Positions 840 through 56,814 of a DNA stretch of 64,000 nucleotides are shown here, piece after piece. Origin of the DNA: Flavihumibacter fluminis (lineage in GTDB: Bacteria; Bacteroidota; Bacteroidia; Chitinophagales; Chitinophagaceae); contig NZ_JAKEVY010000002.1 in assembly GCF_021491375.1 (NCBI RefSeq), positions 434,001-498,000 on the forward strand, written 5' to 3'. The notes under the pieces are model-generated. The model ran no database searches, was not told where the DNA came from, and saw nothing but the letters and a program-made list of their open reading frames with translations. Positions within the stretch are counted from its first letter, which is position 1. Each line of letters begins with the position of its first letter. The translations under genes were made by a program, and so were the position numbers.

Positions 840-2291
840 ATGGCCCAGGAAGGCGCTTCTTTTAAACCCACACTTGGATTATTGGATGCCACGATGATTG
901 TAGCAGGATCCATGATCGGCTCAGGCATCTTTATTGTTTCATCAGATATTGCACGCAATGTTGGCAGTGCCGGCTGGTTGATTTTTGTCTGGTTACTGAC
1001 CGGATTTATGACATTAACGGCTGCCCTGAGTTATGGCGAATTAAGTGCCATGTATCCTAAAGCAGGCGGACAATACGTTTACCTCAAAGAGGCCTATAAC
1101 CCCCTGATTGGATTTCTTTATGGCTGGAGTTTTTTTGCGGTAATCCAAACCGGTACCATCGCAGCCGTAGGAGTAGCATTTTCCAAATTTGCAGCCTATA
1201 TCTTTCCCTCGCTCAGTGAAAAAAACATCCTGATTGATGCAGGATACATCCAGATTTCCTCTGCTCAGCTGGTTGCCATCCTGGTAGTAGTAATTCTCTC
1301 ATTCATAAATACACGGGGCGTCAAGGAAGGCAAGCTGATCCAGACCACCTTTACGCTGGCCAAACTGCTTGCGTTATTCGGATTGATCGTATTTGGTTTC
1401 CTGATCGGTGCAAAAGCCGGTATCTGGGATGCCAACTGGGCTGATGCCTGGAGCTTTGGTAAACTGGCAAAAACGGAAGCCGGTGATGAATTGGTGTATG
1501 TGGGAGAAACGGTCAAAAAAACGTTTTATGAAAACTGGCCTGCCATCATCGGAGCCTTATCTGCAGCGATGGTAGGTTCGGTATTCAGCAGTGATGCCTG
1601 GAACAACGTAACTTTTATTGCAGGAGAGATCAAACGGCCGGAGAAAAATATCGGTCTCAGTTTGTTCCTGGGAACCCTGATTGTTACCATCATTTATGTT
1701 TCTGCCAACCTGATGTACACGGCTGTACTGCCCATCAATGAAATCGCATTTGCACAGGATGATCGCGTGGCAGTTGCAGCATCACAGAATATTTTTGGAA
1801 GCGTCGGTACGATTGTGATCGCACTGATGATCATGGTTTCGACTTTTGGTTGTAATAACGGCCTGATCTTATCAGGTGCCAGGGTTTATTATACGATGGC
1901 GAAAGATGGTTTATTCTTTTCCTCTGTTGGTCGCCTGAATAAAAATGGAGTACCTGCCAAAGCCCTCTGGATCCAGTGTGCCTGGGCCAGCCTGCTTTGT
2001 CTTAGTGGAAAATATGGCGATCTGCTCGACTATGTAGTATTTGTGGTGCTGATCTTTTATGTACTTACCATTCTGGGTATCTTTAAGCTGCGTCGCTCTC
2101 ATCCGGATGCACCAAGACCCTACAAAGCTTTCGGTTATCCCATCCTGCCTGCCTTGTATATCCTGCTGGCAACTGCCATGTGTTTTGCCCTCTTGTACAC
2201 AAAACCTAAATTTGCATCCTTCGGATTACTGATTGTACTGATTGGTATTCCGATTTATTACCTGGCGGTGGCAAGAAGAAGTGAAAAGTGA
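840..2291 (+). CDS. APC-family amino acid permease
   Basis: A 483-residue integral membrane protein with about 12 hydrophobic segments. It has the family's N-terminal signature around residues 15-40 (MIGSGIFIVSSDIA) and a GGQYVYLKEAY stretch near residue 78. APC transporters move amino acids or polyamines across the inner membrane, usually by proton symport or exchange; the LAT/SLC7-like look suggests amino acid exchange, but the substrate cannot be read from sequence. The ATG at 840 gives a normal N-terminus. It lies alone between a terminator and rfaE1. Its stop TGA is embedded in the first unit of a heptad array. Confidence 0.9.
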   Translation: MAQEGASFKPTLGLLDATMIVAGSMIGSGIFIVSSDIARNVGSAGWLIFVWLLTGFMTLTAALSYGELSAMYPKAGGQYVYLKEAYNPLIGFLYGWSFFAVIQTGTIAAVGVAFSKFAAYIFPSLSEKNILIDAGYIQISSAQLVAILVVVILSFINTRGVKEGKLIQTTFTLAKLLALFGLIVFGFLIGAKAGIWDANWADAWSFGKLAKTEAGDELVYVGETVKKTFYENWPAIIGALSAAMVGSVFSSDAWNNVTFIAGEIKRPEKNIGLSLFLGTLIVTIIYVSANLMYTAVLPINEIAFAQDDRVAVAASQNIFGSVGTIVIALMIMVSTFGCNNGLILSGARVYYTMAKDGLFFSSVGRLNKNGVPAKALWIQCAWASLLCLSGKYGDLLDYVVFVVLIFYVLTILGIFKLRRSHPDAPRPYKAFGYPILPALYILLATAMCFALLYTKPKFASFGLLIVLIGIPIYYLAVARRSEK

Positions 2292-2315
2292 GATGTGAGA
2301 CGTGAGATGTGAGAC
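2288..2315 (+). repeat. Four tandem GTGAGAY heptads at permease gene stop
   Basis: Four perfect head-to-tail units alternate GTGAGAT, GTGAGAC, GTGAGAT, GTGAGAC. The permease stop TGA (2289-2291) is formed by the first unit. The array fills most of the 40-bp gap to rfaE1. Confidence 0.92.
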
Positions 2316-2331
2316 GCAAAAAAACAAATCC

Positions 2332-3318
2332 ATGAATTTTGATCAGCTGTTTGATTCCTTTAGCAAGGTGAAAGTTGCGGTAGTTGGAGATGTTATGCTG
2401 GACACTTATTGGTGGGGCCATGTGGATCGCATTTCTCCGGAAGCACCTGTTCCTGTAGTGGCTTTGGACAGCAGTGAATTAAGAATTGGTGGTGCCGGTA
2501 ACGTAGCACTGAACCTGGTGGCACTCGGAGCACAGGTGCATATTTTTTCAGTGATGGGAGAGGACCAGGATGGCAAACAACTGGATCAATTACTTACCGA
2601 CAGCAATATTGATACGTCGTATATTCTTTTCAGTCACGAAAGAAAAACAACCAACAAAATCCGCGTTATCAGCAGGAACCAGCAAATGATGCGACTGGAT
2701 TCGGAAACCGTAAAAGACCTGAGTGCTACAGAAGAGGAAGCGATTTTCGACAGAATTTCAGAGTATGTTCAGAAGGAGCAACCCCAGGTGCTGATTTTTG
2801 AAGACTACAACAAAGGTGTACTCACGGAATCCCTGATAACAAAGATTATTTCCCTTTGCAAACAGGAGGGAGTTCTCACAACCGTAGACCCTAAAAAGAA
2901 AAACTTCTTCGCCTATAAAGGAGTAGATATATTCAAGCCGAATCTGAAAGAAGTAAAAGAAGGATTGAATCTCTCCCTGGAAAAAGTGGATCAGGCATCT
3001 CTCAGCGAAGTACACAGCAGGTTATCGCAGGAACTCGGGCACGCTGTTTCCTTTATCACCCTGTCTGAAAAAGGCGTTTTTGTACAACAGCAGGAAACCG
3101 CTTTTCAAATACCTTCTCATATTCGCAACATTGCAGATGTATCCGGTGCTGGTGATACGGTTATTGCGGTTGCCTCACTTGTTTATGCAGTAACTAAAGA
3201 TATTCGCTTGTTTGCCGCAATGGCCAATATTGCGGGTGGGTTGGTTTGCGAAGAAGTGGGTACCGCAGCCATTGATAAAAAACGTTTCCTTCAGGAATGC
3301 AAGCAGTTACTTAGTTAG
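2332..3318 (+). CDS. rfaE1: D-glycero-beta-D-manno-heptose-7-phosphate kinase
   Basis: A 328-residue PfkB/ribokinase-family protein that matches the kinase half of E. coli HldE. It phosphorylates heptose 7-phosphate at C1 in ADP-heptose synthesis for lipopolysaccharide core. Visible motifs are GGAGNVALNLVALGA near residue 55 and the ATP-site DVSGAGDT with the catalytic Asp near residue 275. The length fits a stand-alone RfaE1 without the cytidylyltransferase domain. I chose the ATG at 2332; an in-frame ATG at 2302 would add ten residues encoded by the heptad array. The 3' end overlaps the convergent DUF4230 gene by 8 bp. Confidence 0.93.
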   Translation: MNFDQLFDSFSKVKVAVVGDVMLDTYWWGHVDRISPEAPVPVVALDSSELRIGGAGNVALNLVALGAQVHIFSVMGEDQDGKQLDQLLTDSNIDTSYILFSHERKTTNKIRVISRNQQMMRLDSETVKDLSATEEEAIFDRISEYVQKEQPQVLIFEDYNKGVLTESLITKIISLCKQEGVLTTVDPKKKNFFAYKGVDIFKPNLKEVKEGLNLSLEKVDQASLSEVHSRLSQELGHAVSFITLSEKGVFVQQQETAFQIPSHIRNIADVSGAGDTVIAVASLVYAVTKDIRLFAAMANIAGGLVCEEVGTAAIDKKRFLQECKQLLS

Positions 3319-3937
3319 TAGCTACTCGTATTTTTTGAAATCCCTGCAGTGCCAGGAAATTCCGCAGCACTTTTAATGCCTGTTCATCCGCTTTCACGAG
3401 AATGCCTTTTTCGGTTGCCCGTTGCCGTAACTTTTCACTGGCCTGGGATACCAGTTTATTGGTTTCGGCCTGCGACCAATTTCCTTCTTCAATAAAAACA
3501 TCCGTGCCGGATGGATTAACGATGATGTCCTGAATGCGGGCAGCAGGGATCGTTACTGATACTGAATCATAGCGTATGAATATTGCATTGGATTCCAACC
3601 TGCTCAAATCAGTTCCGGCTATCACTTTTCCTTTCACTACCAATACCAGTTGCTCTGCCTGTGCAAGAGGTAGCGGACTTATCCAATCCAGTATTTTTTT
3701 CGGAGAGCCTGGGGGAACCGGACGAACCTGGCTCACCACCACTTCATCGGATGATTCAATGGTAAAAAGAGTCGCGATCTGTTTGATTTCTGTGATGAGC
3801 AGGGGTGTTTCTTCAATCAGTACGGGGCTCGCCTTAAACCAGCTGCCGACAGATGGTAGCCAGTTCAATTTCACCAGCAGGCTGTACAACAGTACAACGA
3901 TCACTAAAGCAACTACTATTTTCACTATTCCTCTCAT
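3311..3937 (-). CDS. DUF4230 family membrane-anchored protein (downstream copy)
   Basis: 208 residues with one N-terminal hydrophobic helix (about residues 5-25) followed by a soluble domain resembling DUF4230. Features include an initial ETPLLITEIKQIATLFTIES-type segment and a C-terminal helical part (LRQRATEKGI). The role of DUF4230 proteins is not known to me. This gene overlaps the upstream paralogue by 4 bp (ATGA), so the two are almost certainly co-translated, and its 3' end overlaps rfaE1 by 8 bp in convergent orientation. Assignment rests on resemblance only. Confidence 0.8.
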   Translation of the reverse strand: MRGIVKIVVALVIVVLLYSLLVKLNWLPSVGSWFKASPVLIEETPLLITEIKQIATLFTIESSDEVVVSQVRPVPPGSPKKILDWISPLPLAQAEQLVLVVKGKVIAGTDLSRLESNAIFIRYDSVSVTIPAARIQDIIVNPSGTDVFIEEGNWSQAETNKLVSQASEKLRQRATEKGILVKADEQALKVLRNFLALQGFQKIRVATN

Positions 3938-4503
3938 CGCAGTATACTGGTGGGTTGGTCAGCAAATTCAATGTTGATTTCGGTATAGCCCAGTTGTTGG
4001 CAAAAGCGGGTGATCCAGTCACGGGTATGACTACGCGCTGTTTCAAGTATACCTGTTTCAGGTATAGCAGCTTCGATCTGCTTCTCTGCCTGTGCCAATA
4101 AGGCTGTTCTTTCCTCCTGGCTGAATTCAGAGCGAAGCAGTCCCACTTCTTCATATTCCAGTCGTATTTTCTCCGGGGGCAGTTGAAGAGAGAGGATTTT
4201 CGGTGGCGGTAATTTGATCTGAATGGAATTTCCAGAGCTGGTGATATCCTCTTCACTTAACTGCGTCAGATCAATTCCTGCTTTGAGATTGGCTTCCACA
4301 CTTAGCAGAATTTTTCGATCCCCGATTTTATACCAGGTCTGGTTATCACTGGCCTTTACAATTTTGGTAACCGTGTATTGAGTGGTAGCCAAAGCACCCA
4401 TTTCTTTTATCGCCAATACCTTTTCCTCTCTTGGGATGGATGAGCTGCAGCCTGCCAGCAGGAGAAGTAAAAGTCCGTTCAGATACTGCCCAAATTTGCT
4501 CAT
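3934..4503 (-). CDS. DUF4230 family lipoprotein (upstream copy)
   Basis: 189 residues starting with a lipoprotein signal (LLLLLLAGC, Cys19). The rest parallels the following gene: an N-terminal KEMGALATTQYTVTKIVKAS segment, a beta-rich middle part (QIKLPPPKILSLQL) and a C-terminal helical part with ERTALLAQAEKQIEAA. It is a second DUF4230-type domain with a lipid anchor instead of a transmembrane helix. The pair is divergent from ispD across a 33-bp gap that carries a perfect inverted repeat. No biochemical function is known to me. Confidence 0.8.
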   Translation of the reverse strand: MSKFGQYLNGLLLLLLAGCSSSIPREEKVLAIKEMGALATTQYTVTKIVKASDNQTWYKIGDRKILLSVEANLKAGIDLTQLSEEDITSSGNSIQIKLPPPKILSLQLPPEKIRLEYEEVGLLRSEFSQEERTALLAQAEKQIEAAIPETGILETARSHTRDWITRFCQQLGYTEINIEFADQPTSILR

Positions 4504-11445: not shown

Positions 11446-14400
11446 ATGCCAAAAAAAATCACCCTGCCCTTATTGGGCAAGTTCCTAACGTTTTTATTGA
11501 TCATGGCCTCTTTCAGTGCACAGGCACAGAAGGCCATTTCGGGCAAACTGGTTTCCAAAACCAACCAGCCATTGCCCGGTGCCACTATTACAGTGAAAGG
11601 CACCACTGTGGGTACAGCTACTGATGAACAGGGAAATTTCCGTATTACCTTACCTCCCGGACGAAATACACTGGTTATTTCGAACGTAGGGTTTACAACC
11701 AAAGAAGTTGTCGTTGGAGATGACACAAACCTTAATATTACGCTTGACGAAGACATTTCTGGTCTGAGTGAGGTAGTTGTTACCGGTTATAGCAGCCAGC
11801 AACGCAAGAATATCGTTGGTGCTGTTTCCACTGTAAAAGGGGAGCAGCTGGCAGCGGTTCAGACAGGTAACGTAGAACAGCAATTCCAGGGTCGCGTACC
11901 TGGTTTAACTGTAATTACATCCGGACAGCCGGGTACAGTAAGCCAGGTAAGGATCCGTGGTTTTGGTTCCTTTACTCCTGGTGGAAACGATCCACTTTAT
12001 GTAGTGGATGGAGTGCCCACTTATAATATTGACTTCCTGAATGGTAATGATATCGAGTCCACTACAGTACTGAAAGATGCGGCTTCTGCATCAATCTACG
12101 GTGCCCGTGCATCTGCGGGTGTGATCCTGGTTACTACCAAAAAAGGAAAATCCAGTCAGGGCATTCGTGTTACTTATGATATGTCTTACGGTGCTACTGT
12201 TCCTGGAAAAGGTTTAAATCTCCTTACTCCCCAGCAACAGGCTGATATGACCTGGGTTGCGTTGCGCAATGCAGGCCAGCCCCTGACCCACCCCCAATAT
12301 GGAAGTGGTGCGAATCCGGTGCTGCCTGATTACCTGAAAGTAGGTGATGAGTTTGGATTAAGTAATTTATCGCCCAGTGATCCAAGACTTGATCCTGCCC
12401 GTTTCAACACCAACTTTGATGCGGGTTCCATTTACCAGGTAATCCGTGCCAACAAAGCAGGTACCGACTGGTATGGTGCATTAACAGAAACCGGCCGGAT
12501 TCAGAACCATACACTCGGACTGAGTGGTGGCAATGAAAATGCCCGTTATTATGCAGGCTTCAGTATCTATGATGAAAAAGGTACAGTGTTGAATACCTTT
12601 CTGAAGAGATATACACTGCGCCTGAACAGTGAGTACAAAATCGGTTCTCACATTCGTCTCGGTCAAAACTTCCAGTTTACTTATCGCGAAAACCCCAATA
12701 TCGGTGGTCCACAGGGTGAGAACGACATCATGTTCGCACTTACCATTAACCCGCTTATTCCTTTGTATGATGAAGGAGGTGGGTTTGCAGGAACTACTGC
12801 ACGTGGTTTCAACAACTCAACCAACCCCGTAGCCCGTCGTATCCGTTCAAGAGATAACAAAGGATTCAGCGGCGGTGCTTTTGGTAATATTTTCGGAGAA
12901 GTTGACTTCGCCAAACATTTTACATTCCGTACCAGCTTTGGTGGAAGTTTCTTCTACTTCCAGAACCGTTTCCTCAACTACAGAACCTATGAGAACTCTG
13001 AAAACGTAGGTAACTACACATTTGGAGAAGGCGCAGGTAATGGTGGCGATTGGACCTTTACTAATACCATCCGCTATGGTCAGGAAATTGGCAAACACAA
13101 TGTGAACTTCATTGGAGGTATTGAAGCAATCAGCTATGGTTATTTCCGTGGCCTGAGTGGACAGGGATTAAATCCATTCTCAATCGATCCTAACTATGTT
13201 ACCATTACCAACACCGATCCTAATGGTCGCCAGGTAAACAGTAATGGTAGTCCGTTTATCAAACTGTTCTCTCAGTTTGGTAAAGTAGATTATTCATATG
13301 ACGATCGTTACCTCTTCACAGGTACTTTGCGCAGAGATGGTGCATCTGTATTTGGAGAAGACAACCGCTACGGTGTATTCCCTGCCTTCTCTGCGGGTTG
13401 GAGAATCACCCAGGAAAACTTCATGCAGAATACCAAGTGGATCAATGAACTGAAAATCCGTGGTGGCTGGGGTAAAATGGGTAACTCAAGAATCAGTCCG
13501 AACAACCTGTTCAATACAGCAGGAGCGCAGGCTCTTTTCGGATATGATCTTGGTGGCGCTAACACCAGCACAAGTCCTGGTCTGGCCCTTACCGGTATCG
13601 GAAACCCAACAGCGAAGTGGGAAGAAAATACTACCATCAACGTAGGATTTGACGGTACCTTCTTCAATAACAAAATTGATGTAATATTTGACTGGTATAC
13701 CCGCAGAACCAAGGACCTCCTGTATCGGGACCGTCTGCCTGCAACAGTAGGTAATGCTACACCTCCTTTCATCAATATCGGTTCTATGAAGAACAGCGGT
13801 ATTGACCTGATGGTTACCTATAAAGACAGGGTAAGCAGCAAGTTCCGCTATGAAATGGACTTCATCTTTACCAAGTACACCAACGAGATCACTAAAGTAT
13901 CTGATGCCAGATCCTTCTTTGATGAATCATTCAGCGGTCGTATTGGTGGAGGTATTGTACGTAACGCTGTAGGACAGCCGGTTTCTTCCTTCTTTGGTTA
14001 CAATGTAATCGGCTTGTTTGCTGATCAGGCTGATGTTGACAAGTCTCCTGATCAGGATGGCGCTGGTCCAGGTCGTTTCAAATATGAAGATGTAAATGGT
14101 GATGGCAGAATCAATGATGAAGACCGTACCTTCCTGGGTAATCCTAACCCTGATTTCTCTTATGGTTTCAATGCCCGCCTGATCTTCGGCGATTTTGATG
14201 TGGAAGCCCTGTTCTATGGTGTATATGGTGGTGAAGTATTGAACTTTACCCGCTGGTTTACTGATTTTTATCCTTCTTTCGCGGGAATCGGAAAATCTGA
14301 CCGTGTATTGGATGCCTGGACTCCGGACAACAGAGACACTAAAGTTCCCATTTTTGAGAACATTTCCAACTTCTCAAATAACGGTGTGTTGAACTCTTAC

Positions 14401-49658: not shown

Positions 49659-50120
49659 ATGAGCCAGATCAACCTATCCTCTATGAAAGTTATTGGTATT
49701 ACTGTTAGAACCTCAAATGCTGCAGGTGCACCCGGAACGGATATCCCGGAACTTTGGAATCGTTTTTTGTCGGAAGCAATATTATTAAAGATCCCGAACC
49801 GGATTAACGATACAATTTACTGCGTATATACAAATTACGAGGGCGATCACACTAAACCCTATACAACACTGTTAGGATGCCAGGTAACTGAAATGGATAC
49901 TATTCCACATGGCACGACCGGTATAGAGATTCCAAAAGGTATTTACGAACAGGTATCAGTTACCGGGAATTTAATGAATGGAATTGTATTTCAAGCCTGG
50001 ATAGATATCTGGCAGCGCCCATTAAATAGAACCTATATCGCGGATTTTGAAGTCTACGATGAGAAAGCAGCTGATATGTCCAATGCAGAAGTGAACATAT
50101 TTGTGGGTGTTCAGAATTGA
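49659..50120 (+). CDS. GyrI-like/AraC effector-binding domain protein
   Basis: 153 residues forming one domain of the GyrI/SoxR-effector type, seen as MKVIGITVRTSN near the N-terminus, TIYCVYTNYEGDHTKPYTTL near residue 47, IPKGIYEQVSVTG near residue 89 and the C-terminal ADFEVYDEKAADMSNAEVN. Stand-alone domains of this kind bind small hydrophobic molecules and some hydrolyse them. It starts 15 bp after the PepSY gene. It overlaps the convergent nuclease gene by 10 bp. Confidence 0.85.
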   Translation: MSQINLSSMKVIGITVRTSNAAGAPGTDIPELWNRFLSEAILLKIPNRINDTIYCVYTNYEGDHTKPYTTLLGCQVTEMDTIPHGTTGIEIPKGIYEQVSVTGNLMNGIVFQAWIDIWQRPLNRTYIADFEVYDEKAADMSNAEVNIFVGVQN

Positions 50121-51198: not shown

Positions 51199-51849
51199 TC
51201 ATTTACCGGTATAAACAAGTTTTCTGAAATCTCCTCCACTACCGGCACCCAGGAAGATTCCGATTTTACCAGATTTTGCAGTCCGTAAACGGCTTACTTT
51301 CATAGCCGGGCTTGCATTTCCATTGATAAGAGCAATAACTTCGGTATCAGTAACGTGGATGGTCATACTAAACCAGTTATTGGGCTCCGGAGGAAATTGT
51401 ATGGCATTTTCAAACTCGGCATTCCGTTCGTCTCTCAATTTCTTCCAGGTAAATTCCGGATGTGCGATGTACTGGATTGAATGAATTCTTCGAACAGAAT
51501 CTGTAGCCAGGAAATTAAAGGGACGGCAATACACTGCTTCATAGGTTGAATCATTTTGTCCACTGAAAGCCAGCCCGACAAAACTTTTCTGGATCTCATC
51601 CTTGCCTCTTAACTCCAGTGTGAAGGTACCGGTAGAAAGGTTCTCAACCGGCAACCAGACAATGCCTTCTCCTTTTGTTTCCGAAACTTTGATATAATCA
51701 GACTGTTCATCGGTTTCGATACTGATCGTTCGGTTAATCACGACCAGTTTGCCCTTTTTATGAAATTGAGAGAGTCGAAGGGTTTTCTGTGCGGATACCG
51801 AACCTGAAAGCACCAGCAGTCCAACAAGTAGTGTAGTTATTTTATTCAT
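51199..51849 (-). CDS. Secreted concanavalin-like beta-sandwich protein
   Basis: 216 residues from ATG 51849, where a signal peptide begins (NKITTLLVGLLVLSGSVSAQ). The remainder is a single beta-rich domain (TFTLELRGKDEIQKSFVGLA, NDSTYEAVYCRPFNF, IGIFLGAGSGGDF) with the look of LamG/3-keto-disaccharide hydrolase-type sandwiches, common in secreted Bacteroidota proteins. No catalytic residues can be assigned. A ligand-binding role is possible. Confidence 0.65.
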   Translation of the reverse strand: MNKITTLLVGLLVLSGSVSAQKTLRLSQFHKKGKLVVINRTISIETDEQSDYIKVSETKGEGIVWLPVENLSTGTFTLELRGKDEIQKSFVGLAFSGQNDSTYEAVYCRPFNFLATDSVRRIHSIQYIAHPEFTWKKLRDERNAEFENAIQFPPEPNNWFSMTIHVTDTEVIALINGNASPAMKVSRLRTAKSGKIGIFLGAGSGGDFRKLVYTGK

Positions 51850-51936: not shown

Positions 51937-51954
51937 ATACGAACTTTTGCGTAT
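51937..51954. promoter_or_regulatory. Candidate operator 1, ATACG-N8-CGTAT
   Basis: The inverted repeat lies 52 bp upstream of the lipoprotein gene at 52007. Bases after it (TTGCGTATTG, CTGGAAT, GGATTTTTA) are shared with the region upstream of 55813, in the same order and spacing. Confidence 0.6.
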
Positions 51955-52006
51955 TGCAGTAGTCTGGAATTAGCAGGATTTTTATTCCAATTTTAAAATC
52001 CAGTAT

Positions 52007-53116
52007 ATGAAATGCATTCCAGTGTGGCTGGTGATATGCACCGGCTTATTTATTTCCTGTACCAAAAGCAAAGAGGATGGCTCCCCAACCAATGCAACCT
52101 TTGATCTAGTGGAACAACTACCTGGGGAACCGCGCTTATATGAACAGGCCGATCTGGTCATCCACAATAATCAACCCTTTGTTAGTGCTACCAGCTCGGA
52201 ATTCGGCAACCGAAACAGCGTCTTTCTCTTCCCTCTGCAGGATGGCTGGCGCAAATATGAACAACCCAACCAGGAATTTGTACTGCTTACCTCTTTTAAT
52301 AATATGCTTTACGGCATCATGGAATTTCGGGAACCTTATCAGGCGGGACAGGTTTCCACTTTCCGGTATTCCTATTTTCTGTACAAGTGGATCAACTCGG
52401 CGTTTGAAAACATAGCCCGACTTGACTTCACCGATCATAACGGAGTGGCTCAATCGCCTTTGCAGAATCTGCGCTGGTATAAAAACCAGGGCAGACTGCA
52501 ACTTGTTGCGCAACAAAGTAATGGTACCAGTTTTCTATGGAACCTCACGCTGGAACGTTTTGATCAGAAACAGGAAATCGGTAACTCCGGACTCAACCAG
52601 ATCGTGATTCCTTCCACTGCTGGTATCAATTTCACTTCTTACCGACAGATCAACGGAGCTTTTGACCGGCTGGATATTGTTCAGAATTATTTCTTCAATG
52701 GTCAGTCTTTACAGGCTGGCAAGGAGCATTTGTTTCAGGAAACCCTGGACGGCAGTTTTGATAATACTTATCTGTTTTATGCAGGCATGGGTAATGCCTT
52801 GTATGGAATACGTGCCAATCAATTGCGTAACCTGGATACAGATCAAACCATAAAAGAGTTAGCTGATGGATTGAGTTTTCAGGTTTCCAGCATTAAATCT
52901 GCAAACGGTAAGCTCTATATCCTGATTGGAAAAGGCGATGCGGACTGTAAAAAACTGGGTGTATTTGATGGCGCCAATTTTAAAGAATATGCCTACTCCC
53001 TGCCCGCTGAACTGGATCCCTGCTCCCGCCTGCTCGATGTGGAAGAAGTGAATGGAAAGCTCTACTGCCTGCTCCTTAGTAACCGGCAACTGGCAGTTGT
53101 ACAGCGACCGTTTTAA
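52007..53116 (+). CDS. Lipoprotein of unknown function next to two-component system
   Basis: 369 residues with a lipoprotein signal (GLFISC, Cys18). The rest is beta-rich with repeated blocks of the type LYGIMEFREPYQAG, LYGIRANQLRNLD and LYILIGKGDADCKKLGVFDG, suggesting a propeller or kelch-like fold. I do not recognise a family. Its upstream region shares an operator-like repeat with the gene on the other side of the two-component system, so it is likely a target of that system. The 3' end overlaps the response regulator gene by 4 bp. Confidence 0.68.
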   Translation: MKCIPVWLVICTGLFISCTKSKEDGSPTNATFDLVEQLPGEPRLYEQADLVIHNNQPFVSATSSEFGNRNSVFLFPLQDGWRKYEQPNQEFVLLTSFNNMLYGIMEFREPYQAGQVSTFRYSYFLYKWINSAFENIARLDFTDHNGVAQSPLQNLRWYKNQGRLQLVAQQSNGTSFLWNLTLERFDQKQEIGNSGLNQIVIPSTAGINFTSYRQINGAFDRLDIVQNYFFNGQSLQAGKEHLFQETLDGSFDNTYLFYAGMGNALYGIRANQLRNLDTDQTIKELADGLSFQVSSIKSANGKLYILIGKGDADCKKLGVFDGANFKEYAYSLPAELDPCSRLLDVEEVNGKLYCLLLSNRQLAVVQRPF

Positions 53117-53769
53117 GAAATCCAGTTGTTGCGCATTGCCGCATTGATGGCACTTACTTTATTGTTCACCTGCAACTTTCGGTAAATATTTTCCAGGTGC
53201 TTCCGAACCGTTCCTTCGCTGATCTCCAAACTGGCCCCAATCTGCTTATATCCCAATCCGTCTTTTAATAATTCTAGTAATTCGATTTCTCTTGGGGTTA
53301 GATGGCAGTCAGCTTGCTGATCGGGTCGCTTGGGTTTGGAAGCTTCTGCAGCACGAATATAGTTCAAAGCTTTCAGCGCAATACTGGCCGACATGGCAGC
53401 CCCTCCAGCAATGGTTTGCTGAATGAATGAGATCAGTTCGGTACCGGTTTCATCTTTCAGCAGGTATCCGCTGGCACCGGCTAATATCGATTGAAAGATT
53501 TTTTCATCATCATCAAAAGTGGTAAGCATGATGACCTTACAATGGGGGTAACGTTCTGCTATATGCGCAGTAGTCTCAATACCATTGAGCTCGGGCATTT
53601 CAATGTCCATTAATACCAGGTCAACGGACTGACTTTCCATTTTTTCCAGTAGCTCGGCCCCATTGCCCGCTTCAATACAAACCTCGACAGTTGGATCCTG
53701 TGCCAGTTTTTGAACAATGGAAATTCTTGCCCGGGCATTGTCTTCTGCTATCGCAATTTTAATAGACAT
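53113..53769 (-). CDS. NarL/FixJ-family response regulator
   Basis: 218 residues: a receiver domain with the phospho-acceptor Asp55 in VDLVLMDIEMP, the conserved Lys in LLKDETG, and a C-terminal LuxR-type HTH (LTPREIELLELLKDGLGYKQ, then EISEGTVRKHLENIYRKL). Its partner is the histidine kinase encoded directly upstream. Its own promoter seems to lie in the gap and in the end of the kinase gene: TAGATTTG 4 bases before the ATG, with an operator-like repeat 22 bp further upstream. Confidence 0.93.
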   Translation of the reverse strand: MSIKIAIAEDNARARISIVQKLAQDPTVEVCIEAGNGAELLEKMESQSVDLVLMDIEMPELNGIETTAHIAERYPHCKVIMLTTFDDDEKIFQSILAGASGYLLKDETGTELISFIQQTIAGGAAMSASIALKALNYIRAAEASKPKRPDQQADCHLTPREIELLELLKDGLGYKQIGASLEISEGTVRKHLENIYRKLQVNNKVSAINAAMRNNWIS

Positions 53770-53773
53770 AGTA

Positions 53774-53781
53774 CAAATCTA
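53774..53781 (-). promoter_or_regulatory. -7 element TAGATTTG of the response regulator gene
   Basis: On the minus strand a perfect TAnnTTTG ends 4 bases before the ATG at 53769. There is no TTG at the -33 position; the ATACG-N8-CGTA repeat lies 22 bp further upstream, as expected for an activator-dependent promoter. Confidence 0.5.
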
Positions 53782-53803
53782 TTGATTCAATGAAGCATTC
53801 GTT

Positions 53804-53821
53804 CTACGCAATACTGCGTAT
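53804..53821. promoter_or_regulatory. Candidate operator 2, CTACG-N8-CGTAT
   Basis: Same architecture as the sites at 51937 and 55746, with one base changed in one arm. It covers the last codons and stop of the kinase gene and lies upstream of the response regulator promoter. Confidence 0.55.
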
Positions 53822-55681
53822 CAAAGGGAACTTAATTTTCAGCCTGGTCCCGTTTCCTTTTTCACTTCGGATATCCAGGGTCCCATTGAGTTCCTTCACG
53901 CGTTCCCACAGGTTCCGAAGGCCTGATCCCATACTCTCATTGCTTGTATCCATTCCTGCTCCTGAATCACTAACGCTGGCTTCCAATAGACCATTTTCCG
54001 CTTCTAACTGAACAGTCACCATGCTGGGACTGGCATGTTTTAGTGCATTAGTTACTCCTTCCTGGATAATGCGAAATAAATGCGTTGCAATTTGGTTGCC
54101 CAGCACCAGGTCAGGATCACCGGTAACAGGCAGCACTTTTACCTGCGCGATTTTTTTATAAAAATCAATGAGTTTGGAATTAAAAGCAGATAGACTCACT
54201 TCCGGATTGTTCATCAACCATACCGTTTTTCGCAATTCGGCAATTGTTTCATCCGTCAGTTGGCGAATATCCTGCAAGGGAACGGATGGAGCAGATCCTT
54301 CATCCGCCTGCTCAACTGAGGCCTTGATAAAAGTGAGATAAGACCCGATATTATCATGCAGCTCGCGGGAGATTTGCATGCGCTGATCATTGAGTCGCGC
54401 CATCTCCTGCGCTTTTGCTCTTAGTTTTTGTTGCTTGAGGTAGAGAAGTGGAATTATAATTCCCAATAACAGTAGTACACTCACTCCACTTAAAGCCAGG
54501 TTTCGGAATCGTAAACTGGCTTTGCTTTTTTCCAGGGCTGCGTCTTTCTGTGCCGACTGATACCTGGTTTCCAATTCGGCTGAAGCTTTGAGCATTTCAT
54601 TTTCTGTAAAGCGATTTTTCTCTGCTTCATGAAGTCCCAGATAATATTGCATACTGTCTGCCCGCTGGAGTCCTCCATAGGCAATAGCCGTTTGGAGGTA
54701 GATGCTGATCAGTTGCTCTGATAATCCGCCTGCTGCTGCAACGGGCAGCGCCTGTTTCAATTGTTCCAGCGCAGACTTGAAAGATCCGGTAGCATTATAA
54801 GCAATAGCGAGCGTGGCTCTGGCACTGGCCAGTTCTCCATCGAGTCCTATGGATTTACGCAGTTCGATACTCTGTTCTGCCAGGCGAATCGCTTCAGCAA
54901 ACTCTTTTTTTCCAATGAAAATATTACTCAGGTTATTGAGCGCGGCAGATTGCGCATAGAGGTTTTTGGAGGCCCCGGCAATATCCTGCGCTTTGCGGTA
55001 ATAAATCAATCCGTTTGGGGTGTCCTTTGTTTTCAGGTAGGTATTACCAATATTTACAAGCGTATTTGATAATTCGTAGGAACGGTTTAGTGATTCCAGC
55101 AACCCGGCGCTTTGGGTTTGATACTCGATGGCTTTTGCATAGTTGCCCATCGTGAAATACAAGGATCCGATATTGCCCTGCACCTGGGCAGATTCAAATA
55201 CCTTGCGCTCTTTTTCATAATAAGCCAGGGCCGATGTGAACTGCAGCATGGCACTGTCCAGTTTCCCTGCTTTATAATAACAGTTACCTAATTTAAGCTG
55301 GATGGATGCCGTGCCGCTGGAATCCTTCAATGATTTTCGAATCGCCATACCTGTGGATAGTTCTGAGATAGCGGCATCCAGATTTCCTTTAAGCAGCAGG
55401 GCAGTGCCATAATCATTGCGGGCCTGTGCTTCCAGGGTTGGATTGGATATCCTGGAAGCTACAGCTACAGCCTGCTGACCGTAATGGATAGCCGAATCTA
55501 TGGAAACAGGCAGGTAGGCCCAGCAGAGATCGCTGAGGAGCTTAGCCTGTTCAGCTGCATTGGTTGTCTTTTTGAAAACAACTTTCAGGGAATCGGTTTC
55601 GGAATTGTTTTGTGCCATCAGCAGCAATGCATTCAGCACAAAGGCCAATAGCAGTACTGCAGGTTTAAAAACTATGTACAT
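53804..55681 (-). CDS. Sensor histidine kinase with TPR-repeat sensor region
   Basis: 625 residues from ATG 55681. A signal/anchor helix at the N-terminus is followed by about seven TPR repeats (residues 40-370; for example AIEYQTQSAGLLESLN), one transmembrane helix (LALSGVSVLLLLGIIIPLLY), a HisKA_3 helix with His near residue 441 (RELHDNIGSYLTF) and a HATPase_c domain (QEGVTNALKHA; GAGMDTSNESMGSGLRNL). Periplasmic TPRs presumably sense a protein or peptide. It is the cognate partner of the downstream regulator, separated by 34 bp. Confidence 0.93.
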   Translation of the reverse strand: MYIVFKPAVLLLAFVLNALLLMAQNNSETDSLKVVFKKTTNAAEQAKLLSDLCWAYLPVSIDSAIHYGQQAVAVASRISNPTLEAQARNDYGTALLLKGNLDAAISELSTGMAIRKSLKDSSGTASIQLKLGNCYYKAGKLDSAMLQFTSALAYYEKERKVFESAQVQGNIGSLYFTMGNYAKAIEYQTQSAGLLESLNRSYELSNTLVNIGNTYLKTKDTPNGLIYYRKAQDIAGASKNLYAQSAALNNLSNIFIGKKEFAEAIRLAEQSIELRKSIGLDGELASARATLAIAYNATGSFKSALEQLKQALPVAAAGGLSEQLISIYLQTAIAYGGLQRADSMQYYLGLHEAEKNRFTENEMLKASAELETRYQSAQKDAALEKSKASLRFRNLALSGVSVLLLLGIIIPLLYLKQQKLRAKAQEMARLNDQRMQISRELHDNIGSYLTFIKASVEQADEGSAPSVPLQDIRQLTDETIAELRKTVWLMNNPEVSLSAFNSKLIDFYKKIAQVKVLPVTGDPDLVLGNQIATHLFRIIQEGVTNALKHASPSMVTVQLEAENGLLEASVSDSGAGMDTSNESMGSGLRNLWERVKELNGTLDIRSEKGNGTRLKIKFPLIRSIA

Positions 55682-55745
55682 ACGGTGGTTGGGTTCTGAA
55701 GTGAATTTAAACAATTCACACAAACGGAGAGGTATATACGCAGTA

Positions 55746-55763
55746 ATACGAAGAATTGCGTAT
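55746..55763. promoter_or_regulatory. Candidate operator 3, ATACG-N8-CGTAT
   Basis: Identical arms and spacing to operator 1. It lies between the divergent kinase gene and the secreted protein gene at 55813, 49 bp before the latter, and is followed by the same CTGGAAT and GGATTTTTA elements as operator 1. Confidence 0.6.
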
Positions 55764-55812
55764 TGTGGATGGACTGGAATGTCTGGATTTTTACTGAAAA
55801 ATGTATTTCCCC

Positions 55813-56814
55813 ATGAAAAAAATCCTATTCCTGTTATTACCAGCCAGTTTATTAGTAACCGAATCCGCGTTCAGCCAGGTTACAGAAAAGGAAGCCAGTA
55901 AGTTTTTTGCTCCCAAAGGCAATCATCGATCTCCATTCAAAGGCGAAACAGAAGCCTGTTTAACCAGTGTGAATCTGCAATTCAAACTTGCCTCGCGCGA
56001 ATACATTGAGAAGCGGGGAGCCGGCAATATTATTTCCTGGGCCTTCCTGGAGGGTATCGATGAACAATTGATGCAGGAGATTGCGAATGAATATTACCTG
56101 CGACTCGCAGCGAAATTGAAAGAAAATGGAATCGGGTTGTCCGAGGAATATCAAAATACAGATGCCTACAAGAAATTAGTAGAGAAAAATTCAGACCGCA
56201 ACCGGGAAGTGTTTAAAAAGAACTGGGGTGTTAGTCGCATCATTACGGCCAATGAAGCTCCCTATATTGAATATCCGGTAGGTATGATGGGGCCACATTC
56301 TTCTTTGGGTAATGATTTGAAGAAGCCGGTAGGGCAGGTATTCATCACCATCGACTTTGCTGAGTTTGTATTGAAGATCAGTCAGTCGGCCCGCGATATC
56401 CAGGGTATTACCACCACCAAATCCAAATCCACCCTGATTCCGCGAATCCGGATTGAAGGGGTGTCGCAGGGTGCCAAGATGCGGGGCGATGGCAGTTATG
56501 CCATGTTTACCGGCCGCAACTGGGGGTATACCAATGCCATCATGCCAAATGATAAAGCACTGCATTCAGATTTGGGATATGCACTGGAAACACAGGCCAG
56601 TAAAGGCATGCCGGAAACCATGAAGCGCTTTAAGTCAAATGTGGCGGGTGATATGGCAGCCATTTTCAGTGGCGGACTGGTAGGTAATGGTCGCGCTACC
56701 GGCGAGTTCACTTACACGGTAAAAGCTGATCCGGCCTTGTACAAAAAAGCAGTGCTGGATGCATTGGATACCTTCAATAATTACCTGGTAGCTTATATCA
56801 GCGCAAATCGCTAG
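55813..56814 (+). CDS. Secreted protein of unknown function, probable two-component target
   Basis: 333 residues from ATG 55813, where a signal peptide starts (KKILFLLLPASLLVTESAFS); ATG 55801 is an alternative. The mature protein is mixed alpha/beta with LASREYIEKRGAGNIISWAF near residue 60 and a Gly-rich middle part (GVSQGAKMRGDGSYAMFTGR) near 215. I do not recognise the family. It reads away from the kinase gene and shares its upstream operator-like region with the lipoprotein gene at 52007. A strong terminator follows, so it is probably monocistronic. Confidence 0.68.
   Translation: MKKILFLLLPASLLVTESAFSQVTEKEASKFFAPKGNHRSPFKGETEACLTSVNLQFKLASREYIEKRGAGNIISWAFLEGIDEQLMQEIANEYYLRLAAKLKENGIGLSEEYQNTDAYKKLVEKNSDRNREVFKKNWGVSRIITANEAPYIEYPVGMMGPHSSLGNDLKKPVGQVFITIDFAEFVLKISQSARDIQGITTTKSKSTLIPRIRIEGVSQGAKMRGDGSYAMFTGRNWGYTNAIMPNDKALHSDLGYALETQASKGMPETMKRFKSNVAGDMAAIFSGGLVGNGRATGEFTYTVKADPALYKKAVLDALDTFNNYLVAYISANR

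Follow-up and report, generated by a model that had tools for sequence, protein, structure and literature searches.

Predicted regulon of the two-component system

A two-component system of Flavihumibacter fluminis was analyzed in a stretch of 64,000 nucleotides (nt) of contig NZ_JAKEVY010000002.1 (positions 434,001 to 498,000), here called the window. The system consists of a tetratricopeptide repeat (TPR) sensor kinase and a NarL-type response regulator, and is flanked by the genes of two putative exported proteins, lipo369 and T333. The system resembles FimS/FimR and very probably (about 85%) directly activates its own regulator gene and the lipo369 and T333 genes, as judged from sequence. 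The evidence consists of operators, fixed spacing, conservation and co-occurrence with the regulator. The initial annotation had proposed that the regulator controls itself and the two flanking exported genes. This proposal was supported by the exact 7-2-7 geometry of the operators, a -7-like box at a fixed 20-nt spacing (N20) facing the target, co-occurrence across 244 genomes and an unlinked T333 homolog with the operator. The circuit type is already known; no description of this regulon was found in literature searches. The genes, taken from the list of open reading frames (ORFs), are as follows:

52007-53116, plus strand: lipo369, putative lipoprotein (by eye), left target
53113-53769, minus strand: NarL-type response regulator, receiver and GerE domains (ORF list and Pfam)
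53804-55681, minus strand: TPR sensor histidine kinase with TPR, HisKA_3 and HATPase_c (ORF list and Pfam)
55813-56814, plus strand: T333, putative exported protein (by eye, signal-like N-terminus), right target

A second in-frame ATG for T333 lies at 55801.

Operators in the window

The repeat ATACG-N8-CGTAT had been reported at 51937, 53804 (one base changed) and 55746, and a motif search recovered all three copies. The repeat is perfect at 51937-51954 and 55746-55763; in the copy at 53804-53821, the outermost A is changed to C. The inner 16-bp core TACG-N8-CGTA is perfect at 51938, 53805 and 55747, and the 64-kb window has no fourth core. The NarL 7-2-7 operator is composed of inverted heptamers with two base pairs between them, as given in the available part of PMC4549865. 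All three cores fit this definition exactly.

51938-51953, plus strand: left 7-2-7 operator (predicted), core TACGAACTTTTGCGTA; from the motif search, core conserved in loci L008, L009 and L010
53805-53820, minus strand: inner 7-2-7 operator (predicted) TACGCAGTATTGCGTA; within the last kinase codons, present in L008, L010 and L016, not in L009
55747-55762, plus strand: right 7-2-7 operator (predicted), core TACGAAGAATTGCGTA; from the motif search, core conserved in L007, L008, L009 and L010
55737-55743, plus strand: extra heptamer TACGCAG, upstream of the right operator by one helical turn

The TATACGC of the extra heptamer is invariant across five aligned genomes. The right promoter may therefore bind two dimers.

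Promoter layout and direction of control

Read toward the target, all three sites showed the same order: the operator, a 3-nt step, a spacer of exactly 20 nt and a -7-like box of the Bacteroidota type, xAnnTTT[A/G]. The predicted promoters are as follows:

51954-51984, plus strand: left promoter, TTG at 51954-51956, N20, -7-like box GATTTTTA at 51977-51984, start at about 51989
53774-53804, minus strand: regulator promoter, GAA at 53804-53802, N20, -7 box TAGATTTG at 53781-53774, start at 53769
55763-55793, plus strand: right promoter, TTG at 55763-55765, N20, -7-like box GATTTTTA at 55786-55793, start at about 55798

Compared with the -33 TTTG and -7 TAnnTTTG elements of the Bacteroidota sigma-A promoter, the -7 box was perfect at the regulator and imperfect at the outer two sites. 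The third site had been described as preceding the regulator's own -7 box; it does so, with a perfect box oriented toward the regulator gene. The predicted start at 53769 is the A of the regulator ATG. In the window (53769), in L054 (3931) and in L055 (5745), 4 nt separate the -7-like box from the regulator ATG, which suggests a leaderless regulator mRNA. TTG follows the operator at the outer two sites only, with GAA at the regulator site. Since the -33 motif is weak in Flavobacterium johnsoniae (PMC6847099, available part), TTG carries less weight than the -7 box. The -7 element TAnnTTTG of F. johnsoniae spans -12 to -5 according to the same source, and the available text of PMC9723704 gives the same span. 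This span puts the 3-nt step at -35 to -33; the operator would then reach from about -51 to -36, with its centre at -43.5. The predicted location of the operator is that of an activator.

Of 18 non-redundant sites that face a target, 16 had the -7-like box at exactly N20 and one had it at N19; other offsets had a mean of 0.05 sites per offset. This count omits near-copies in L007, L008, L010 and L016, the kinase directions (counted apart), the reverse directions of L055, L061 and L063, and the palindrome of genome G248, which had no regulator relative at E<=1e-62 among the at most 12 candidates scored. Also omitted were two perfect cores at a distance from the regulator: 1051 in L051, and 5663 in L054, which falls within a predicted frame.

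The site at 55746 sits between divergent genes, and its promoter design faces the exported gene T333, not the kinase. The kinase was rejected as a target of this site, since none of six loci has a -7-like box at N20 when read toward the kinase. The divergent gene at 51199-51849 was rejected as the target of the left site: in Flavihumibacter UBA7668 (L009), its homolog is elsewhere and the site still precedes lipo369. The divergent neighbor of the left site in UBA7668 is a different protein of 726 amino acids (1882-4062), and the homolog of the window gene lies further downstream (12797-13435).

In the proposed mechanism, the TPR-sensor kinase and the NarL-type regulator would work as a two-component system in a FimS/FimR-like mode. 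Once phosphorylated, a dimer of the regulator would bind the 7-2-7 operators, which abut the -33 element and have their centre near -43.5, and would activate promoters whose -7 box is usually imperfect. Three promoters would be driven: that of lipo369, that of T333 and that of the regulator itself, whose operator lies within the final part of the kinase gene. The perfect -7 box at the regulator gene, with transcription predicted to begin on the ATG, makes it plausible that the regulator is supplied at a basal level and also autoactivates. At the outer promoters the -7 boxes are weak, and expression would require the regulator. Binding, activation rather than repression, positive autoregulation, a periplasmic signal and the functions of the targets are here predictions from sequence.

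A regulator that binds the operators could instead repress, covering the -33 region and blocking polymerase until a signal removes it. This is unlikely, as a fixed distance between operator and -7 box (N20 in 16/18 sites) is typical of activators. The operator does abut the -33 element, NarL is a repressor as well as an activator (PMC4549865, available part), and four of the 18 sites, the regulator's own included, have a perfect TAnnTTTG at N20. However, 12 of the 16 N20 boxes lack the T at -12 or the G at -5, which are nearly invariant in F. johnsoniae (PMC6847099, available part), and this suggests that these boxes need help. The 7-2-7 sites of Escherichia coli NarL at napF (-40 to -49) and yeaR (-38 to -47), as given in the accessible passages of PMC4549865, also argue for activation by the regulator.

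Conservation within the genus

The genus comparison covered 15 genomes. T333 and the kinase co-occurred in the same five of them. The relatives bearing the module were Flavihumibacter cheonanensis WS16, Flavihumibacter UBA7668, Flavihumibacter Prado059 and a metagenome-assembled genome titled Flavipsychrobacter. The right operator was a perfect 18-mer in all five module genomes. The left core was perfect in the 4/4 genomes spanning the left site, one with the outermost base changed; the Prado059 contig piece ends inside lipo369 and is outside this count. The inner operator was present in 4/5 module genomes. An empty site was sought through the neighbor DUF2339 (E<=1e-100), which occurred in 4/15 genus genomes, all with the module, and none was seen.

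UBA7668 is divergent: its kinase is 64% identical, and much DNA around the outer operators differs. TACGA, TTGCGTATTG and ATTTTTA were retained at both outer sites. The initial annotation had listed shared elements downstream of these sites. Its TTGCGTATTG and (G)ATTTTTA were kept in UBA7668, but CTGGAAT was not conserved there and was rejected as a functional element.

Operator and regulator across Chitinophagaceae

The family scan covered 244 Chitinophagaceae genomes. A regulator relative was defined by E<=1e-62, with up to 12 candidates per genome scored. Such a relative was found in 10/244 genomes, three of them of this genus; a threshold of E<=1e-50 added four more genomes. The full promoter pattern, made partly from sites in the ten regulator genomes, occurred at 35 places in 19/244 genomes: at 26 places in 10/10 regulator genomes and at nine places in 9/234 others (Fisher P 5e-13). 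The reversed control of the full pattern occurred at nine places, none in the ten regulator genomes. The strict palindrome occurred at six places in 5/244 genomes, four of these among the ten, and its control at three places, none among the ten. Twelve of the 26 places were neither beside the regulator nor used for making the pattern, versus 0.38 expected. Without G266, which is of the same genus as G146, seven such independent places remained versus 0.35 expected. Among the nine full-pattern places without a regulator, the downstream region was inspected at three (G065, G025 and G125).

Orthologous systems carried the same sites, as the initial annotation would lead one to expect: they were found in sister genomes and, in other genera, at the regulator start in seven of eight loci with a 51-58% regulator (L050, L052-L056 and L064). 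A second core was upstream of the adjacent kinase in 4/4 loci spanning that DNA (L050, L052, L053 and L056). In G139 and G135, the lipo369 and T333 homologs are neighbors and are divergent from a kinase-regulator pair. In G139, the operator lies between the target homologs and this pair.

The regulators were also compared in the recognition-helix region. RKH[IL]E was present in 13/13 regulators with a site (12 adjacent, and G192 with its site elsewhere in the genome) and in 0/5 relatives that lack a core nearby, one of which is this genome's own paralog, with RRH; this stretch was noticed after the fact, and five of the 13 regulators are from one genus.

Predicted targets outside the window

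Nine of the 12 independent places precede an ORF whose start looks signal-like or lipoprotein-like by eye, and two of these nine proteins have a type IX secretion tail above the cut-off (L119 and L121). Also among the nine is an unlinked place in G072, of another genus, that precedes a T333 homolog of 66% identity. No other single point favors the regulon as strongly as this homolog, which keeps the predicted operator although unlinked. One further place faces a TTG-started frame of 42 codons with a signal-like start and a stop near the contig end. The remaining two, similar sites in G266 and G146 (L118 4259 and L119 6072), had no convincing gene downstream; they could be promoters of short or non-coding RNAs, or a gene could have been missed. 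In L052 and L053, the first 350 nt beyond the divergent site contained no start of a frame of at least 60 codons.

More regulon members were sought in this genome. The full pattern with at most two mismatches matched 17 places versus 21 for the control; three of the 17 were known and 14 had two mismatches. The longer operator pattern matched ten places versus eight for the control, and its one-mismatch place C21:148073 was rejected because no -7-like box was at N20.

A wider model is possible, though rather doubtful. The Chitinophagaceae regulator lineage would keep a rigid promoter grammar (7-2-7 operator, TTG, N20 and weak -7 box), would carry an operator at the start of its own gene and would exchange exported targets between genera. 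Here, lipo369 and T333 would feed back on the TPR sensor that induces them; this feedback on a periplasmic sensor is a guess. If the predicted regulon is correct, a two-component system of Bacteroidota could have its operator, its promoter spacing, its autoregulation and its targets named to the base from sequence. The prediction could be transferred to other genera. It would also offer a way into lipo369 and T333, each an orphan family of exported proteins, and would suggest recognition-helix residues that set regulator specificity.

Weighing of the evidence

Several observations weigh against the proposed regulon. The N20 rule was noticed by eye in part of the set before counting; the genome scan is less circular. 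The absence of the regulator from the other 234 genomes rests on up to 12 scored candidates per genome. The inner operator is absent in UBA7668, where the kinase and regulator frames overlap. L057, of another genus and with a 51-58% regulator, has no core nearby, and in G192 no site adjoins the regulator. In G135, the target homologs are beside a 43% regulator with no core nearby; a 51% regulator elsewhere in that genome has a core at its start. G135 has no full-pattern match, and counting it gives 10/11 regulator genomes with the pattern. The operator-bearing regulators are not one clade (three changes). G065 (L127 1713) has a convincing full-pattern promoter before an outer-membrane-barrel-like gene of 206 amino acids (by eye), and no regulator relative was listed there at E 1e-50. 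To these are added the genome-wide counts of the repeat given below.

The G065 site would fit a different DNA-binding protein that uses the sites, with the tie to the adjacent regulator being indirect. This explanation is very improbable, given the pattern in 10/10 regulator genomes versus 9/234 others and the sites at the regulator gene in seven of eight loci of other genera. The 7-2-7 arrangement is moreover the geometry of the regulator's own family (PMC4549865, available part).

In the window, four repeat matches with at most one mismatch were found versus a shuffle mean of 0.76, and four were reached in 0/100 shuffles. The near-match at 49810 (one mismatch) is inside a coding frame and was taken as chance. 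The repeat as first described was also searched for in the 4.71-Mb genome. The perfect 18-mer occurred at only two places, namely the two outer window sites, but the reversed control pattern was perfect at four, and one mismatch gave 58 motif places versus 120 control places. Taken by itself, the palindrome shows no numerical excess in the genome. The weight of the three sites comes from placement, conservation and the surrounding promoter rather than from rarity.

The same lack of excess over the reversed control would fit repeats that are due to chance, or to shared ancestry of the flanking DNA, and have no function. This is scarcely credible, since the cores were kept in UBA7668 while much neighboring DNA changed, and the pattern recurs unlinked in regulator genomes of other genera. 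Direct activation by the adjacent regulator remains the preferred explanation.

Comparison with characterized systems

By analogy, the nearest characterized system is FimS/FimR of Porphyromonas gingivalis. FimS is a periplasmic sensor kinase with TPR (PMC11053733, available part), and FimR directly binds and activates the promoter of the surface-protein gene mfa1 (PMC1974823, available part). The likeness is a TPR sensor with a regulator acting directly on a surface-protein gene, which is predicted here. The accessible text of PMC1974823 does not contain the terms "binding site", "inverted repeat" or "footprint". The window kinase scored 69.1 bits versus the curated cut-off of 600 (NCBIfam NF053520) and is not a FimS by score, and the window targets are not recognized as fimbriae.

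E. coli NarL/NarP is similar in regulator architecture (NarL model, 128.1 bits; structure 1a04, E 2.6e-28), in 7-2-7 geometry and in the activator positions at napF and yeaR (PMC4549865, available part). However, 128.1 bits is below the equivalog cut-off of 250 (NF007935), and the window sensor is a TPR protein. The window heptamer is TACGMAN-like, whereas the engineered NarL site in the available part of PMC4549865 has TACCCCT.

The best PDB sequence match of the regulator was VraR (5hev, E 2.4e-30), compared by sequence only. VraR and its relatives are envelope-stress regulators.

Protein families and neighboring genes

The regulator matched Response_reg (85.8 bits) and GerE (61 bits), each above the Pfam cut-off, and has the NarL/FixJ-type architecture. 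Asp55, in LVLMDIEMP, is probably the acceptor Asp of the receiver. The kinase matched TPR, HisKA_3 and HATPase_c, all above the Pfam cut-off, which identifies it as a TPR sensor histidine kinase. Its hydrophobic segments (residues 1-26 and 392-418) flank the TPR region on both sides; the TPR region is therefore likely to be in the periplasm.

Both target proteins had been placed outside known families, and neither reached a curated cut-off in Pfam or NCBIfam: lipo369 had no match, and T333 had nothing above a family cut-off. The lone family match listed for the target proteins was lacG (E 0.044, 12.7 bits versus a cut-off of 561). A six-sequence T333 profile had no match among PDB structures up to E 10.

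Elsewhere in the window, a protein of 153 amino acids (49659-50120) matches only the Cass2 and GyrI-like effector-binding families; a DNA-binding domain was not found in it. A distant T333 homolog (30-35% identity) is present in another family of the order (L017 12608-13594). A tblastn search of this 17-kb L017 stretch gave no homolog of the kinase or of the regulator. The distant T333 homolog adjoins OmpA-like and barrel-like genes (by eye).

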